From contig JADGJT010000301.1 in assembly GCA_027604005.1 (NCBI GenBank), forward strand, positions 1-29,013: a DNA stretch of 29,013 nucleotides, given 5' to 3'. A model generated the notes under the pieces. That model was not told the origin of the DNA. It searched no databases and worked only from the letters and a program-made list of their open reading frames with translations. The position numbers and the translations under genes are program-made. Positions 1-28,732 of this stretch are shown here, one piece after another (position 1 is the first letter of the stretch; each line of letters begins with the position of its first letter). Source of the DNA: Dinochytrium kinnereticum (taxonomy: Eukaryota > Chytridiomycota > Chytridiomycetes > Chytridiales > Chytridiaceae).

Positions 1-190
1 AATGTATTGAGGAATATAGCATCTCTAATTACTTAGATATGCTCTGTGAAATATTGAAACTATTGAAATCTTTCACAAATTCACGATGCTATTTGATAGA
101 GTCATGTCGTCTTGAGTGGATTGATAGCATTGATAGCCGTCCCTCTCTCCACCATCTTAAATCGAATGAAAACTGTCCGGCGAGATTGAT

Positions 191-2121: not shown

Positions 2122-3987
<1,866 letters not shown>

Positions 3988-6015: not shown

Positions 6016-7305
6016 TCAGCTGAGAATCCTCTGCCTCCCCAAATCCATTAAGACGCCCAAAAATATAACCACACCAAACCACTTGCTGGCCCTAAACAAT
6101 TTTGCCGCGTTCACCCTATTTCCAGGATCCAAATTTGATATTGCCCAGATGTAATGAACAGCCGCACCACCGACGCTGACGAGGAAGAAGGGGTATGAAT
6201 GGTCGTTAAGGTACCCTGCGATTGAAAGGGATCCGACCGACATGGCCGCAAAGAGACTCAGCCACGGTTTGATCTGAGAGCCGAAGAAGAGGGCCGTGGA
6301 CTTCACACCGGCTTTGAGATCGTCGTCCTTGTCCTTTTAGGTGGGTAAAAAAAGGTATAAGAGGATAACCAGGTGCCAGAAAATATCTACCTGAAGCGCA
6401 TATATTGTGTCGTAGACCAAGGTCCAGCACACACCGGATGCATAGAGGGGTACCACGACGGCCCAGTTGCATGATCCAAGAATGGCGGACCAACCCAAAA
6501 GGGCACCCCAATTAAAGGTCAAGCCCAGTACGGCCTGTGGCCAGTAAGTGATCCTTTTCATAAGTGGATAGGCAGCAACTAGAACTAGAGAGGATGCGCC
6601 CAGGGCTATGCTGTAAAGAATGAGCGATTTGACATTCAACAGAAGGAATTTGGTGCCGCGAACATATACCTGTACAAGTTCAGCTGTGTCAATACTGCAA
6701 GGCCTCCTGCCAGCTGGAGACCCAGAAAAATAAATGCCTTGGGATAGGTGATCTGACCGGAAGCAATTGGCCTGTCTTTTGTGCGATCGACCTGGAATGA
6801 TGTTGAGTTATACGAAGCAATACTCGTGACTTAATAAGACCTGCTTATCCAGATCACTGTCCCACATGTCATTGATGGTGCATCCTGCTCCCCTCATGAT
6901 GAAGGCACCGATACTGAACAGAGCCAACTGTCTTCCCATTTCAAGAAGTGGGACAGCACCGCCAGAGGCAAATGTCGCCATGCCTATTGACCAGGCGCAT
7001 GGCAGGAGCAGAAGATATGTGCCAGCGGGTCTATCCACACGAGCTAGCCGTAGATAGGGTACGATCGACTTGGGGAGCCTGCTCCAAGAGTCTGGCACGG
7101 GCTCCAAAGCCTGGGAAGTCTTGTGCCTGAGAATAAGAGCCGATCGTAAAGGGAATTTCAGGCTGTATGCCTTTTGATTAAGCGGTGATAAGTTCGTGGT
7201 AAGGGTGCGGATCGAGAGGTTGAGAGAAGGGGAAAGCGTGAATCCTTTGAGGCATTCGCTGAGGGCTCTCGCTCGATGCGAGGTTGTCGGTTGCCAGCAG
7301 CGCAT
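6016..7305 (-). CDS. COQ2: 4-hydroxybenzoate polyprenyltransferase, mitochondrial, 4 exons (374 aa)
   Basis: Attaches the polyprenyl tail to 4-hydroxybenzoate in ubiquinone biosynthesis, in the mitochondrial inner membrane. Exons in transcript order: 7305-6841, 6791-6670, 6610-6391 and 6333-6016. The first prenyl-diphosphate/Mg motif NDMWDSDLD (145-153) is followed across the splice by [14 protein letters not shown]. The second motif region is [13 protein letters not shown] (from about residue 262). [20 protein letters not shown] and [20 protein letters not shown] are COQ2 blocks. Several membrane helices are evident, and the first ~80 residues are basic and Ser/Thr-rich, as for a mitochondrial presequence. 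The start is the ATG at 7305; the frame is open upstream only to a TTG. It is divergent from uL3m (43 bp between ATGs) and converges on the coiled-coil gene, whose stop is 27 bp away. Confidence 0.96.
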
Positions 7306-7348
7306 TTGTGACACGACTTGAGCTTTTCTTTTTTCAGAGGTGACCAAG
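7306..7348. promoter_or_regulatory. Divergent start-to-start gap, COQ2 / uL3m
   Basis: Only 43 bases separate the start codons of two opposite genes, both encoding mitochondrial proteins. The leaders and core promoters must therefore overlap each other or the 5' coding ends. I see no TATA box here. A pyrimidine-rich tract (CTTTTCTTTTTTC, about 7323-7335) is the only notable element. Confidence 0.5.
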
Positions 7349-8759
7349 ATGCAAGGACTTGGGGCCTATGTGTCCGCAACGACGGCATTCGCCTTCACTT
7401 GCCTGAGGCTACCGAGCATCATTCGTCATCCGTCAAAGATCCAGCGATGCGCTTCTTCTTCATCTTCCCTGGCCTCCCTGGAAATTGAGAAGGCCGTCTC
7501 GACCATGACCGTCCCCATCACGCTGAGGGCAAAGAGGCGACTTGCAAGGTTCCCTCAGCCTGGCCTTCCACAACCCGTTCCCTCCATTCAACCTCCTGCT
7601 CGACCGGGACTTCCGACTCAAAATGTTCCGCCACCTGCTTTATACCCTTTTAGTCTGGATACGATGGGCAACATTGTCAAGGCTTCTTGGACCCCAAAGT
7701 CGAAACGGACTGGAGTGATTGCTTTAAAACGCGGGATGACGGCTATATGGGATGAATGGGGGGTTTTGACACCCGTTACTGTCTTGCAGGTTGGAAATAA
7801 TGCGTCCTCCCCGTTCATTGGTTCTCTAAGCTAGGCCCTTTGTTTTTTGTTTTTTGTTTTGCTTTAGATGGTTCAAAATCAAGTCATTTGCACGAGATGG
7901 CATAATGGTTGTGGATCTTATGTGGTTGAAATTGGGGCTGTGGATCAGCCAAAGCTACATCGTGTCAGGAAGCCACAGCTGTTCCACTTTCGCCGTCATT
8001 TGATTCCTCCCAAGAAGAAGCTAACAGAGTTTAAAGTGTCTCCGGATGCTTGCCTTCCGTCAGGTATAATCCTCATGTGGCGTCAAAAGATAACATCTTC
8101 TTACAGGCACAAAGATTTCTGCTGCCCACTTCGTCGCGGGGCAGTTTGTTGATTGTCAGTCCAGGACGTAGGTTATCTTTTCTTTCTTTATTTTCTTTAC
8201 CTCTGTTTTCAACTGATTGTTTTCAGTCTGGGTAAAGGTTTCCAGGGTGGTATGAAGCGATGGGGATTTAAGGGTCTGCGTGCCTCTCACGGTGTCTCCA
8301 TCTCTCACCGTTCTCTTGGATCTACTGGAAACCGACATGTGGGTTAACTACCACGGTATTTAATGCTGATTTCAAATATTTTAGGATCCTGGAAAGGTTT
8401 GGAAGGGAAAAAAGATGGCTGGGCGTATGGGTGGCAAGATGAGGACCGTCCAAAACCTTAAGGTAAATGATGACAGTCTTTTGCAAGTTTCTCACCCTTT
8501 TCAGGTCATGAAAATTGACACAGCGCACAACCTTCTCTATGTGAAAGGTTCCATCCCTGGGCCTGAGGACAAGTACGTGTTGGTTCGCGACTCTGTCCGC
8601 AAGGGATGGTACAACCAGTGCTTCCCGCCCAACACTGTAATTCCGTTCCCCACATTCCTTGGAGACGTCAAGAGCCTTCCCCGTGAGCTCCTGCCGCCCC
8701 CACCACCCGAGGGCTCCAAGGATCCCCTCGCGCGCGCCAGACGCGAGGTCGAGAAATAA
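7349..8759 (+). CDS. MRPL3: Mitochondrial large-subunit ribosomal protein uL3m, 6 exons (380 aa)
   Basis: Structural protein of the mitoribosome large subunit near the peptidyl-transferase centre (yeast MRPL9). Exons: 7349-7789, 7868-8063, 8107-8167, 8227-8338, 8385-8462 and 8505-8759. L3 signatures: [20 protein letters not shown], the [15 protein letters not shown] loop, the block [18 protein letters not shown], and [19 protein letters not shown]. The N-terminus ([16 protein letters not shown], then Arg/Ser-rich) looks like a mitochondrial import sequence, which together with length separates it from cytosolic uL3. A Pro-rich segment precedes the fold and a charged C-terminal tail ends REVEK. 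The start is the first in-frame ATG. NTF2 begins 99 bp after the stop. Confidence 0.95.
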
Positions 8760-18200: not shown

Positions 18201-19138
18201 TGCGGCCACCTATTTTGCAGTGAATGCTTAGCGACTTTGACCTCTCAGTCTCAATCTACAGCTTGTGTTAACTGTGGACTGGGATTTGAGAGGAAGGATC
18301 TGTTTGAGTTGAAGGATCTTGATGGGGTAGGCGGCTTTGAAGGCATCGTAAGGTCTTTTGCTAACCCCTTATCATTCCCTTCATTTTCTCGTTAAGGATT
18401 TTGAGGATGAAAGTGGGAAATTCATCGAGTTGAAACCTACTGCGATGGAGTTTCGGTATAGCTCTAAGGTGCTTGCGTTGGTTCAGGACCTTGATACAGC
18501 AAGGCAAGAGTCAAGTCAAAGAGGCGAGCCGGCCCCCAAAAGTGTCATCTTTAGTCAATGGACAAACTTATTGGATTTAATTACTGTTAGTATGCTTTTT
18601 TTTTCTTGTCTTTTTTTTTTTGCACTATTTTCATGGCATGGTCTAACCGAATTGGAAATAAAAGCCCGCGTTGGTGGAATCAGGCTTCCTCTATACGCGG
18701 GTCGACGGAAAAATGAACCGCAACGAGAGATCCAACGCCATAACCCGTTTTAAGCAAGACCCCACCGTCCCCGTCCTCCTTCTCTCCCTCAAAGCGGGTG
18801 GTGTTGGACTGAACCTCACCATCGCAAACCGCGTCTACATCATGGAACCGTATTGGAATCCTGCAGTGGAACAGCAAGCTGTTGACCGCGTTCATAGGAT
18901 GGGGCAGACGAGAACTGTGCATGCTATACGGTTTATTGCGAAAGGGACGATTGAGGATAGTATTTTGGAGTTGCAAAGACGGAAGATGAGGTTGGCGGAG
19001 ATGGCGTTTGAAAAAAGGGGTGCGGAGGGGGATGATGACGGATTGGGGAAGAAGGGGCAGAAGAGGGCTAAAGCTAGGGAGAATAAGGAAGAGTTAGCCA
19101 GACAGAGGATGCTTGATTTAAATCTTTTGTTTCAGTAG
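15276..19138 (+). CDS. HLTF-like: SNF2-family ATPase with internal RING finger (HLTF/Rad5 class), 10 exons (1083 aa)
   Basis: DNA translocase and probable ubiquitin ligase of the post-replication repair class, nuclear. Exons: 15276-16079, 16142-16234, 16291-16570, 16660-16860, 16907-17151, 17225-17480, 17545-17961, 18055-18347, 18397-18585 and 18665-19138. Two SUMO-interaction-like motifs lie near residues 70-77 (IIDLTDED) and 177-182 (VIDLTD). Residues about 215-350 resemble a HIRAN domain (LGYVEKRVAAALSPYL, then LYLTLYGMRYSGKEFGDYLL). SNF2 motifs: DDMGLGKT (460-467), DEAH (589-592), LTGTPIQNR. The C3HC4 RING spans C793-C839 and interrupts the helicase, as in HLTF/Rad5/Rad16. The C-lobe has SLKAGGVGLN and QAVDRVHRMGQ (997-1007). 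The start ATG follows a stop-rich leader. Two introns use GTTTGT donors. Confidence 0.93.
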
Positions 19139-23976: not shown

Positions 23977-26464
23977 CTACAGCAAGCCATTCAAAGCCAC
24001 AACCAATTCCTCCGCCGTCTTCCATCCATGCTCCATCAAAGTCCAAGTAAATACGCACTCCTCACCCCCCGCACTATCAGGCACAAACACCAGCCCATCC
24101 GAAATATGAGGCAAATTCGGTACAAGTTCTCTCACAAGCGATGCCAACCTTCCCGTCTTCAAGCATTCCTTGTCCGTAACAGGATCAGACAAAACTGGCA
24201 CATATGATTTTAGTCGAACACGAAAGTGATCGTTCCTAGTCATGGCTTGATGAACATTGCGGGGTTGAATGAGCTTGGATTGCGCAAGTTCGAGTCTCTT
24301 GCGGAGAGGCATTTGATAGTAAAGTGGCTGACCTTCCAGGACCAGTATGTCGGTGATGAGGAAGCGTTGGGTTTTCTAAAGCAAAGAGTTAAGGAAAATT
24401 TTCTTATTCGTCAAAAGAATAGGTGATCATTTACCGTTTCGTGATCCACGTCAACCACCATCTCGCCTTGAATGACCGTGTTGTTCAAGGTTTGGGGCTG
24501 AACGTTCAGTGGACCCGATGAGCTAGGGAAAGTAATCTTAACGTGAGATAATTCCCCATGCCCAGAGTACAAAAATACACCCTCGCTGATTATCATCATT
24601 GTGTAATGGGTCCCTTGCGTCTAAAGTTTCAAAATTACTTTAAGTCTCTCATGCAGCAAGAAAGGACATCCCAAACGATCCAAGAAAACAGGCTGCACTA
24701 ACCTTCCAAGTCGCCCAGTAGTTGCCCTCTCGCAAAGCCCCCATATCAGCAGGTAACGTGCCAGAAGGTCTTAAAAACGGGTCCAATTGAATATTCATAT
24801 CTACAAAAAATACAAAAAAAAAAAAAAGAAGGACCGAATCAGCGACAAGCAAAAAAAAGAAGACCAAAAAGCCGCCCACGAAACAAAATGAAACGACCTT
24901 TACCATTAGGCTTTTCTAATAGTTTACAAAGCCTCTCAATAAGTCTCTCCAAATGCGGTGTCCTAACGTGAACTCCTACCCTCGGTGACGTCGGTGATTT
25001 ATTTGGATCCGGAGAGGTCCGTATATATTTATTTGTATGGTTCTGGTTAGTTTCGGCGTCTGCGGATCGCTTCCTCGGTAACGGGAGGGATGGGATCTTA
25101 AACGCTGCGGATGATTCTCTTTTCTTTTGCTGTCAGAAAGACAAAAGAAGGAGTATTAGAAATATTTCAAAATGCTTTCTTAAATATCTTACAGTTCTCA
25201 AAGCTGCGTACTCTTTGTCCCATGCTGGTGGATCCGGGTACCGTGAATTAAGAGGCATGCTCTCACTATACCGAGAATAAAGAGAGTCAAGCATGAAACC
25301 TATTATAGATAGATTAAAGACCATTCAGAGGCAAAACACTCCTTTGCAAGCAAAACACAAATCACACAAACTCTTACTTGAATAGATCCCTGGCGACCTG
25401 GCATTTCGAAAAGCCTCGACGGCCCTGTGTGCACTCCACCCAAGAGACTCTACGAGATAACAGACTATCATGTACCCTGTCACATTATAGGAGAGAACAT
25501 CGTGAACGCCTATAATTTTGTCTGGGTTCTAAAAAAAGTATATTATCAGACCTAAAGGAAAGAAAAGCGAGAATCACTGACCTTTCGGAACACCATATCG
25601 CACGTCTTATTTATTTTTTCAGTCGAATGTAAGATTTCAAGAATAAAGTGAAACGCTGAAAATCTTACCCTAACAAATAACTTTATATCTTTCTGCAAAG
25701 ACCATCAGCAATGAAATAAAGAATTAAAGAATAACACTCACCTCTGCTGGGGGCATGTACGGATCCGAGCAAGGAAAACTCAAATATGTAATCTTTATCA
25801 CGCATGAATTTATCAGCAACCGTCAACAACAACTACTTCAAAAGCAAACTCCAACCTGATGTTTCTCCCAGACGGAAGGATTATACCTTTTTTGGAACAA
25901 AATTAATGGTCAACCTGTTAAGGTTAAAAAGATATTACTAACCTTTGACTCTCACTTTCAGGTCCCAAATTAATAATCATTTGCAAATCGCATACGCCGT
26001 TCTTTTTCTGAGTTCCAACAAACTAATCAACGAAATAACAACCAAAAAAGCAGTGATTTTAGAATCATACCCCTTCAATTTCTCATTTAAAACAACTTAA
26101 CGCTCAAAGCCCGTAACAAACCATCTCAGGTGTAAACACAAATTCTTCATCCATCTGGTGCTCCTTCGCCAACGGGACCTTAAAAGGCAAGAACCCTTTT
26201 TGGAAAGAAATAAAAAAAAAACGTCCATCCCCATCCAAAGAAATAATCAGCAACCTTACTCATCTACGGAAAAATAACCGCACCTTCAACTACAGCTCCT
26301 CGTCTGGGCACCTCTGTCCAGCACTTTGGCGGCTCAGGAAGCTCCACAACCACCCCCCCATCCTCCGCATCACGGACAATCCCAGAGTCCATCAGCTTCT
26401 TCTCAGTCGATACCTCCTCGGTTTCGTCGTCCGACTCGGGGTCGATAAGGTTGGATATCATCAT
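23977..26464 (-). CDS. RNGTT-like: mRNA-capping-enzyme homologue with degenerate active sites, 13 exons (543 aa)
   Basis: Same domain order as the animal/plant capping enzyme: cysteine-phosphatase RNA triphosphatase, then guanylyltransferase. Exons: 26464-26284, 26195-26122, 26022-25943, 25886-25856, 25792-25742, 25692-25669, 25605-25582, 25528-25378, 25299-25193, 25129-24904, 24800-24703, 24620-24435 and 24375-23977; every phase agrees. Homology marks are an acidic start, PPKCWTEVPRRGAVVEGFLP, NPDKIIGVH, LVESLGWS, and later TVIQGEMVVD and HISDGLVFVP. The phosphatase loop expected as HC-x5-R reads HDVLSYNVT (164-172): Cys is Asp and Arg is Val. The guanylyltransferase K-x-D-G site reads KTQG (349-352): Lys is kept, Asp is Gln. 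Motif IIIa has Gln400 for Asp, and motif V (K-W-K) reads T-W-T (521-523). The OB-fold C-terminal domain is absent. Probably a pseudoenzyme; role unknown. Confidence 0.8.
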
Positions 26465-26634: not shown

Positions 26635-28732
26635 TCACACACACTTAGCGCATCCACACTGCGCAATCCCATACTCCCTCAACGACCTCCTCCTCCACTC
26701 CTTCTCATCCTCATCCATCTCCTCATCCCCGCTACTAACATCCCCATGAGGATTATCATCCAAATAACTCACCAAAATCTCTTCTCCTTCCTTGATGTCC
26801 CTAATGGCTTTCACAACGGTCCGACCGTCGTAAACAGCTGGAGGGGCCGACGATCCGCCTCCTGGTGGTTGAGGCTTGAGTGTGAGATGAGAGTCATCTT
26901 TGTAAACTACCGCGTTTGGGGTGCAGGAATGGTTTATGCTGGCTTGGAGAGGGTGTAGGCCCGTTCCTATTTTTTTGGTTTGTTTGTTTTTTTGTTGGAA
27001 AGGGGGGGGTTTAGGTTCAGGTTGGGAGAAGTACCATATGTAACGAACCTTCGGCAAGGAGCGCACTGATCTGCGCTAACGGGTCAAACTCATCATCCTC
27101 ATCTTCACCGAGATCAGCGGGATCGTAATCTTCTCCATCTGCCAACCCTAATCTCTCCCGCGCAGAGATACCACGAAGCCTCTCAATGATCTCCTCCGTG
27201 ATGGTTTGAGGGAGCTCACCAAAGACCGCGAGAAGAGGGGATGGGGTTAATATTGTAACGTTGTTACGTTCAAAGAGGCCCATGAGGAGAGCAAGGAATT
27301 CTGCTGTTAAAACTAGGGAGGGGGGGTTTATATGTTAGGACGTGGCGGGTTCTACAAAACATCTGGGATTTCTTACTGGGCTGAATCTCGGTGCGTCCAG
27401 CAAATACACTCCTCATCTGCCCAATCGTGTCCTCTACAAGCGTCTTCAGGATAAGCTTAAAATCCTCTGGATCATCCTCCTCGGTTGGCTCACAAACCTG
27501 CCAAAAAAAAAGACAAAACAAACAAAAAAAAAGAACAATCAGCTTCTCCAGAAAGCAAAAAAAAAAGACCAGAAAGAGCGACAACCATACTTACGTCCCA
27601 CCAAAAATCCTTCACAAACATCCTAAAGGGCATCATCGCCTTCTTCATCTCAACACCCCTCTCAACCTCCTTCCCAATCCTCGAAAAAAATTTGGCGGCA
27701 AGGTAAAACGCCTCATTGGTTCGTTCGCAATGTGTCAGGAACGTGTTCAGCGCGTCTGTGTTGGGGTTGGTGGTCGGGCAGAGATAGTCATGACCGTTGG
27801 CGAGGTCGATGGATTTGCAGTTTTCAGAACAGTAAACATTAGTACAGGTTCCACCTAGTTTAGTTGGGAAAAGGGAAAAGGGAATGGTTAGAGGCGGCGG
27901 AGGGGAACGGCGGGAGAGGTATCTTTTCTTTCCTTTTTTCTTTTTTTCCTTTTCTTTTTCCCCCCTCATGGATTGCCTTACCGCATGGAACCTCCGGCTT
28001 GAAACATGGATGGATGGGCTTGGATTTTGACCAGATTTTTTCGATGAGCTTTTTTTCGGAGGTGTCGAGAGGGCGTTTTAGGAGGTGCGAGGTCTATTTT
28101 TTTTTATTTTTTTTTTTACAATCTTGTTGTTAATCGAAAAACATCTCATTTAACCATGAGATGAAGGATTACCTGCGATTCCAACGATCCAACGAAATGC
28201 ATGCACCGGCTACAAACTTTCGAAATAGGCTATACCGAGAAACCCCCCCCCCCCACGAAAAAAGCCATAACAACAATCCAAGACATTGAATTGCAACTTG
28301 TTAGCAACAACAACACACACACACGCACACAAAAAAAAAAAACAACCAGGAAAAAACCAGAAGAAAAAAAAAGGACGGCAAGTAATGATAATAATAATAA
28401 CAATAAACCATAAAAAAAACCATCCAGTCTTCCCACCTTATTATTAAATCCCTGCATTCCCAAAACCCCCATCTCAATCACCACAACATCACCCCTCCTA
28501 AATCCCCCCTCCCCAGCAACCATCGTCTTCCCCCTCTCCTCTCCCCTGTAAACAATCTCCACCTTCAATCCTTCCGTGAGGTTCCTGAAATACGCCTACA
28601 CGATCACCATTGTAAGTGATTGAATGTAAAGGCGGAAAAGGAATGGAAAACCTCGGTCGCATCTTTCTCGGTCGGGGAGTAGAAGGTTGCGTTGGTGCAT
28701 GCAAAGTGAGTGAGGAGGTCGTCTTTGACCAT
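26635..28732 (-). CDS. SMYD5-like: SET-domain methyltransferase with MYND-like insert (SMYD5/Set5 type), 8 exons (461 aa)
   Basis: Probable SAM-dependent protein-lysine methyltransferase. Exons in order: 28732-28652, 28595-28437, 28229-28173, 28093-27982, 27854-27595, 27497-27377, 27312-27049 and 26966-26635, all in phase. The split SET domain starts with LKVEIVYRGEERGKTMVAGE and GDVVVIEMG. A zinc insert follows: KVCSRCMHFVG, then CTNVYCSENC and HDYLC. After a helical middle part the SET core resumes with GTGLHPLQASINHSCTPNA (the NHSCxPN SAM-binding motif), IKEGEEILVSYLDD (catalytic Tyr) and a post-SET CGCAKC. An acidic patch (GEDEDDEFDP) precedes the core. The start is the first ATG of a frame that is open further upstream through a Lys/Asn-rich stretch lacking an ATG. 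Substrate cannot be predicted; Set5 and SMYD5 methylate histone H4. Confidence 0.85.
28284..28406. repeat. Low-complexity tracts inside an intron of the SET gene
   Basis: The second intron (28230-28436) contains a (CA)n-like tract at about 28305-28330, A-runs to about 28372 and an (ATA)n tract at about 28386-28402, plus a C-run at about 28245-28254. These are simple-sequence repeats with no coding sign. Confidence 0.7.

Follow-up and report, generated by a model that had tools for sequence, protein, structure and literature searches.

We identified, in a 29,013-nucleotide stretch of the genome of Dinochytrium kinnereticum (hereafter the window), a relative of the animal/plant-type fused capping enzyme that its residues show to be catalytically dead, as far as sequence can tell. 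D. kinnereticum belongs to the order Chytridiales and the family Chytridiaceae, and at the limited sensitivity of our searches this double pseudoenzyme was found only in Chytridiaceae. The gene is already known as a deposited hypothetical protein. It probably has a new, non-catalytic job; our tentative first choice among the readings weighed below is that a tunnel-type enzyme performs the triphosphatase step in these fungi and that the conserved, dead relative has been kept as a non-catalytic partner or scaffold.

Gene structure and relationship to fused capping enzymes

The gene occupies 13 exons on the minus strand of the window, from 26464 to 23977, which were spliced in silico. The joined exons (1632 nt) stay in frame with a sole, terminal stop codon, and their 543 codons yield a protein of 543 aa (P0001) identical to the deposited D. 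kinnereticum hypothetical protein HDU67_005580; all 12 introns (49-103 nt) run from GT to AG. The claim of 13 exons without frameshift or stop, made in a first-pass annotation of this DNA, is thereby borne out. Neither an alternative genetic code nor skipped exons need be invoked, as the standard code gives a single intact frame equal to the deposited protein. The parts of the gene are as follows.

Exon 1, 26284..26464, minus strand: start codon, acidic N-terminus and beginning of the phosphatase domain (PPKCWTEVPRRG); protein identical to P0001
Exon 2, 26122..26195, minus strand: phosphatase domain, from splicing and translation
Exon 3, 25943..26022, minus strand: phosphatase domain, with Asn 103 at the human D66 position, from alignment
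Exon 4, 25856..25886, minus strand: phosphatase domain, from splicing and translation
Exon 5, 25742..25792, minus strand: phosphatase domain, from splicing and translation
Exon 6, 25669..25692, minus strand: phosphatase domain, 24 nt, from splicing and translation
Exon 7, 25582..25605, minus strand: phosphatase domain, 24 nt, from splicing and translation
Exon 8, 25378..25528, minus strand: P-loop GVHDVLSYNVTG where GVHCxxxxxRTG is expected, from alignment
Exon 9, 25193..25299, minus strand: end of the phosphatase domain and conserved linker (MPLNSRYPDPPAWD), from orthologue alignment
Exon 10, 24904..25129, minus strand: linker with SP/TP and basic residues, then a conserved stretch preceding the guanylyltransferase (GTase) part, from orthologue alignment
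Exon 11, 24703..24800, minus strand: NYWATWK and the beginning of GTase motif I, with the nucleophile Lys 349 kept, from alignment
Exon 12, 24435..24620, minus strand: TQG (motif I), FLYSG (motif III) and QGE (motif IIIa), from alignment
Exon 13, 23977..24375, minus strand: motif IV DGLVF kept, FTWT at the motif V position and the stop codon, with no OB domain after it

The other reading frames of the contig resemble ordinary intron-bearing eukaryotic genes. Just upstream of the capping-enzyme relative and in the same orientation lies a SET domain (PF00856, E = 2.7e-08; window 26638-27075, minus strand), whose gene seems by eye to extend to about 28600. A helicase C-terminal domain (PF00271, E = 6.1e-16) was detected at window 18662-19135 on the plus strand, and the frames from 16843 onward have, by eye, an SNF2-like look with a RING-like cysteine stretch. 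Window 6340-7831 contains a UbiA-type prenyltransferase on the minus strand (PF01040, E = 2.9e-12) next to a frame on the plus strand, which by eye looks like mitochondrial ribosomal protein L3 and has no Pfam match at E = 0.001; the two may have a common promoter region. Finally, a FAD-binding monooxygenase domain (PF01494, E = 1.6e-08; window 3348-3689, plus strand) looks kynurenine-monooxygenase-like by eye.

We then compared P0001 with domain profiles and known structures. The Pfam capping-enzyme catalytic domain (PF01331) matched at E = 3.6e-23 (82.9 bits, cut-off 29.6), and the dual-specificity phosphatase domain (PF00782) matched weakly and below its cut-off (E = 9.5e-05; 22.7 vs 33.5 bits). 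The corresponding values for the two orthologues described below were E = 5e-22 and 5.5e-20 for PF01331 and E = 0.027 and 0.0018 for PF00782, and NCBIfam returned weak DNA-ligase matches far under the cut-off for two of the three orthologous proteins and none for the third. In a PDB search with P0001, RNGTT chains were the best hits, with both domains matched collinearly (E = 2.1e-34, 122 bits); no other phosphatase exceeded 34.6 bits, and fungal GTases gave weak single-sequence matches (E = 0.001-0.0023). An N-terminal domain of the Cys-phosphatase fold is thus fused to a GTase domain, the phosphatase part being recognised through its RNGTT matches, with PF00782 below cut-off. Because RNGTT is matched in both domains and the fungal GTases only weakly, P0001 is, on these comparisons, closer to the animal/plant-type fused capping enzyme than to fungal Ceg1.

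Catalytic residues and their conservation in Chytridiaceae

Residues of P0001 and its two orthologues were compared in RNGTT numbering, using a MAFFT alignment and hhalign profile-profile alignment. In the phosphatase domain, the HCxxxxxR signature gives way to HD(V/I)LS(Y/H)NV in all three members (HDVLSYNVT in P0001), which therefore share both C126D and R132V. The position of human D66, which we take to be the general acid of the phosphatase domain, holds Asn, Ser and Thr in the three members, the Thr (in P0003, from Phlyctochytrium planicorne) lying within an apparently misannotated stretch. Cys126 is the triphosphatase nucleophile of RNGTT (excerpts of PMC5640233). With the P-loop Cys and Arg lost, binding of a 5'-phosphate in the phosphatase pocket is disfavoured.

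The GTase domain shows a mixture of lost and kept residues. Motif I, KxDG in active enzymes, reads KTQG in all three members (D296Q), with its Arg299 changed to His, His and Pro; in motif III, D314S is common to the three and Arg315 has become Gly, Ala or Gln; motif IIIa is QGE in place of DGE throughout (D343Q); and the first motif V lysine (Lys458) is replaced by Thr, Val or Ser, being lost in every member. All three proteins stop just past motif V, so the C-terminal OB domain with motif VI is missing, and the OB-domain profile PF03919 had no match in the D. kinnereticum genome, nor in any of the 14 controls. The FPGxQPVS segment could not be aligned. Kept in all three genera are the nucleophile Lys294 (K349 in P0001), the motif IIIa Glu345 (E402) and the motif IV Asp438 (D504). 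Four active GTases have 47 invariant positions in common, of which 33 were mappable and 14 were not; 18 of the 33 are retained in all three members, comprising 7 of the 12 charged positions and 11 of the 21 others.

The first-pass annotation had read HDVLSYNVT, KTQG and QGE and had remarked on the retained nucleophilic lysine, all of which agree with the alignment to RNGTT. Its T-W-T for motif V is upheld by hhalign (probability 98.9), which sets W522 on the motif V Trp and T523, common to the three members, in place of the second lysine, but is less sure in view of one MAFFT alignment that puts K530 in that lysine column. Its statement that the fold landmarks are intact did not hold, given the absence of the OB domain and motif VI from the three orthologues and the unalignable FPGxQPVS. 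It had overlooked, besides these, the losses of the motif I Arg, the motif III Asp and Arg and the general-acid Asp.

Because of the lost residues, removal of a 5' phosphate by this protein should not occur and a GMP-lysine intermediate should not form on it; catalysis of either capping step is very unlikely. We assume that the motif I Arg, the motif III Asp and Arg, the motif V Lys and motif VI grip the ribose and phosphates, and on these roles the loss of motifs III, V and VI disfavours ordinary GTP binding. It would thus be unlikely that the GTase pocket serves as a sensor, binding nucleotide or cap without chemistry: the invariance of K349, E402 and D504 in three genera speaks for such a pocket, but the residues presumed to hold the nucleotide, including the motif I Arg, are gone.

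The gene appears to be maintained. A full-length orthologue in Chytridium lagenaria has 68% identity over 95% of the query, and that in P. planicorne has 55% identity over 92%; the three genera share the main losses, the truncation without an OB domain and full-length frames. When neutral drift was simulated (60 runs each), a mean of 9.0 stop codons (range 4-16) had accumulated at 68% identity and a mean of 13.1 (range 5-24) at 55% identity. Sequencing error is ruled out because the orthologues in C. lagenaria and P. planicorne carry the same changes, as the first-pass annotation had suggested checking; a gene-model error was likewise rejected on the agreement of records from three genera, and a decaying pseudogene on the intact frame and the simulation. 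An artefact or decaying pseudogene would account for the lost residues and the truncation and for nothing else, and we consider it highly improbable. The proposal of a maintained double pseudoenzyme, with catalytic residues lost and the gene preserved across species, is therefore well supported by these comparisons; the roles that the first-pass annotation offered for it (cap binding, a 5'-end scaffold or a decoy) are conjectural.

Conservation was also examined by domain. At the level of whole domains, conservation is highest in the GTase part (81/68/64% pairwise identity vs 73/54/49% for the phosphatase domain), with the phosphatase core (140-215) reaching about the same level (76/70/63%). 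P0003 diverges from the other two proteins around residues 100-150 (alignment columns 100-160, phosphatase domain); this stretch is probably a wrong exon in the gene model and lowers the counted identity. The idea that the replaced catalytic residues are specially conserved was dropped, as 6 of 10 are invariant against about 57% around them (P about 0.56). Since the replaced sites are no more conserved than the surrounding domain, no special new pocket is indicated.

Searches for protein homologues returned the same three proteins each time, all from Chytridiaceae. Two of these searches scored 8000 candidates and the third 41, and none of them extended to RNGTT, despite its PDB match to P0001 at E = 2.1e-34; diverged or intact relatives may therefore exist in other fungi. 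Among viral contigs, 28 pattern matches were obtained, none of which was a relative.

Other capping genes in the D. kinnereticum assembly

The same assembly contains a gene for a tunnel-type RNA triphosphatase of the Cet1/Pct1 family (contig C46, 84730-85745), read as seven predicted exon pieces. The part read (229 aa, with the N-terminus outside it) matches the capping-enzyme beta subunit of PDB 4pn0, which we take to be Schizosaccharomyces pombe Pct1, at E = 8.2e-37 and Cet1 at E = 8e-21. It also matches the family profile PF02940 and has both glutamate motifs, LEIECKFG and HELEVEF. The presence of this gene in D. kinnereticum is shown, and we infer that Chytridiaceae use the enzyme for the triphosphatase step.

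No canonical capping GTase was identified in the assembly by PF01331, two proteins and six DNA patterns, in a weak exon-by-exon search run without a positive control. The PF01331 search (E up to 10) gave three places, namely the window itself, by exon 13 only, and contigs C437 and C518, which Pfam assigns to DNA ligases and which were rejected as capping GTases; the sensitivity of this search was such that exon 12 of the window was missed and that 2 of 14 controls were matched below the cut-off. A Pce1 fragment and whole Ceg1 matched nothing in the assembly, an uninformative answer given that no genome was known to match these queries. The six DNA patterns occurred, in order, at 0, 1, 1, 24, 7 and 22 places (backward-pattern controls: 1, 0, 0, 10, 5 and 17), the sole place of the second being among the 24 of the fourth, and none of the translations of these places, read by eye, was recognised as Ceg1. 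At the end of contig C59 (bases 4-26, minus strand; locus L014), the DNA reads EKTDGWRLL. No FPGxQPVS-like segment was observed ahead of it, and a tblastn search with Ceg1 (E up to 1) had no hit at this locus, which may represent a truncated capping-GTase exon or have arisen by chance. A gene whose motifs are split by introns, or that falls in an assembly gap, could escape searches of this kind.

The first-pass annotation had proposed to look for a second, catalytically complete capping enzyme; a second RNA triphosphatase gene is present, on C46, and a second GTase was not identified by these weak searches; redundancy is shown for the triphosphatase step only, because of that result. These findings bear on the reading in which P0001 still guanylylates RNA by an altered chemistry, as the only GTase of these fungi. 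The retained nucleophile lysine and the lack of another identified capping GTase in the weakly searched assembly are what it can draw on. However, P0001 lacks the OB domain and its motif VI and has substitutions at the Asp of motif I and the first Lys of motif V, and the search behind the missing GTase had overlooked exon 12, had used protein queries without a known-positive genome and had left L014 as a candidate; we regard this reading as very improbable.

Possible roles and comparison with known systems

Given the tunnel-type gene, the fused relative may have been freed from catalysis when the tunnel-type enzyme took on the triphosphatase step. The two-domain protein would then have been kept because it binds other proteins that act in early transcription or in capping, and could scaffold or regulate the active enzymes, in the manner of an inactive partner subunit. 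We infer that it most likely serves early transcription or capping as a non-catalytic partner or scaffold. A function in some other part of the cell comes close to this in likelihood; in one such reading, less likely than not, the dead enzyme was recruited to a task that has nothing to do with RNA 5' ends, such as a general protein-binding platform. The loss of the P-loop Cys and Arg, of CDS1 (see below), motif III and the first motif V Lys, and of the OB domain is consistent with such a job; against it, the protein retains both domains in order, with a well-constrained GTase part, and the nucleophile Lys, the motif IIIa Glu and the motif IV Asp are retained in all three members.

To evaluate a link to RNA polymerase II, we inspected the pockets through which RNGTT contacts the Pol II CTD, of which the CTD-phosphate pocket CDS1 consists of R330, K331 and R386 (excerpts of PMC8034621). 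CDS1 is lost in all three members, which weakens the link to Pol II, yet CDS1 is poorly conserved in yeasts too, save for the positive charge at 386 (excerpts of PMC8034621). In CDS2, the three members retain R358 and R411 but not K403; R392 is also kept. R358 is present in Ceg1 as well and may be structural. The Tyr pockets have substitutions at F367, V372, C383 and E387, and two of the three members retain L381. Together, these residues offer a weak hint of CTD contact.

The fused phosphatase-type capping enzyme is used as a marker of non-fungal lineages. In fungi the tunnel-type triphosphatase and the GTase are separate, and the same article cites a model that includes a transitional organism holding both triphosphatase types (excerpts of PMC2904801). 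The co-occurrence in one fungus of a tunnel-type gene and a dead fused enzyme bears directly on the question of such an organism, and it provides research on capping with a natural example of a double pseudoenzyme. Chytridiaceae might even preserve a relic of the stage with both triphosphatase lineages, in which the fused enzyme was present in the fungus/animal ancestor, the tunnel type took over in fungi and the displaced enzyme survived in this one fungal family as a non-catalytic regulator of capping; we put this forward as a speculative and rather unlikely scenario. Among the matches listed in literature searches on capping, chytrids and pseudoenzymes or pseudophosphatases, with most subscription journals outside coverage, no title or abstract described a chytrid capping enzyme that is inactive or fused, and none of the residue names sought occurs in the excerpts of PMC11139899. 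Among the same kind of listed matches, D. kinnereticum appeared in one paper, on CDKL kinases.

Compared with known systems, P0001 most resembles the bifunctional metazoan RNGTT/Mce1, with which it shares a phosphatase domain followed by a GTase domain in one chain, the PRRG..V.G.FLP start, IGVH, P-GIY and motif IV. It differs from RNGTT/Mce1 in its altered catalytic Cys, Arg and D66 position, in KTQG and QGE, and in the lack of motif III, of at least the first motif V Lys, of an alignable FPGxQPVS and of the OB domain. The fungal capping GTases Ceg1, Pce1 and Cgt1 share the GTase fold and can be aligned to P0001 by profile, but have no phosphatase domain and possess the OB domain and the motifs. 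A dead relative of a capping enzyme that regulates the active one has a working analogy in vaccinia virus, where D12 is an inactive methyltransferase-like partner of the capping enzyme D1; the analogy would be one of function only, as D12 is a different, non-homologous domain in a different organism. A metazoan/plant-type fusion in a unicellular eukaryote is also represented by TvCE of Trichomonas vaginalis, which, unlike P0001, has the phosphatase motif and six GTase motifs, and in whose organism the authors found no tunnel-type triphosphatase (excerpts of PMC2904801).
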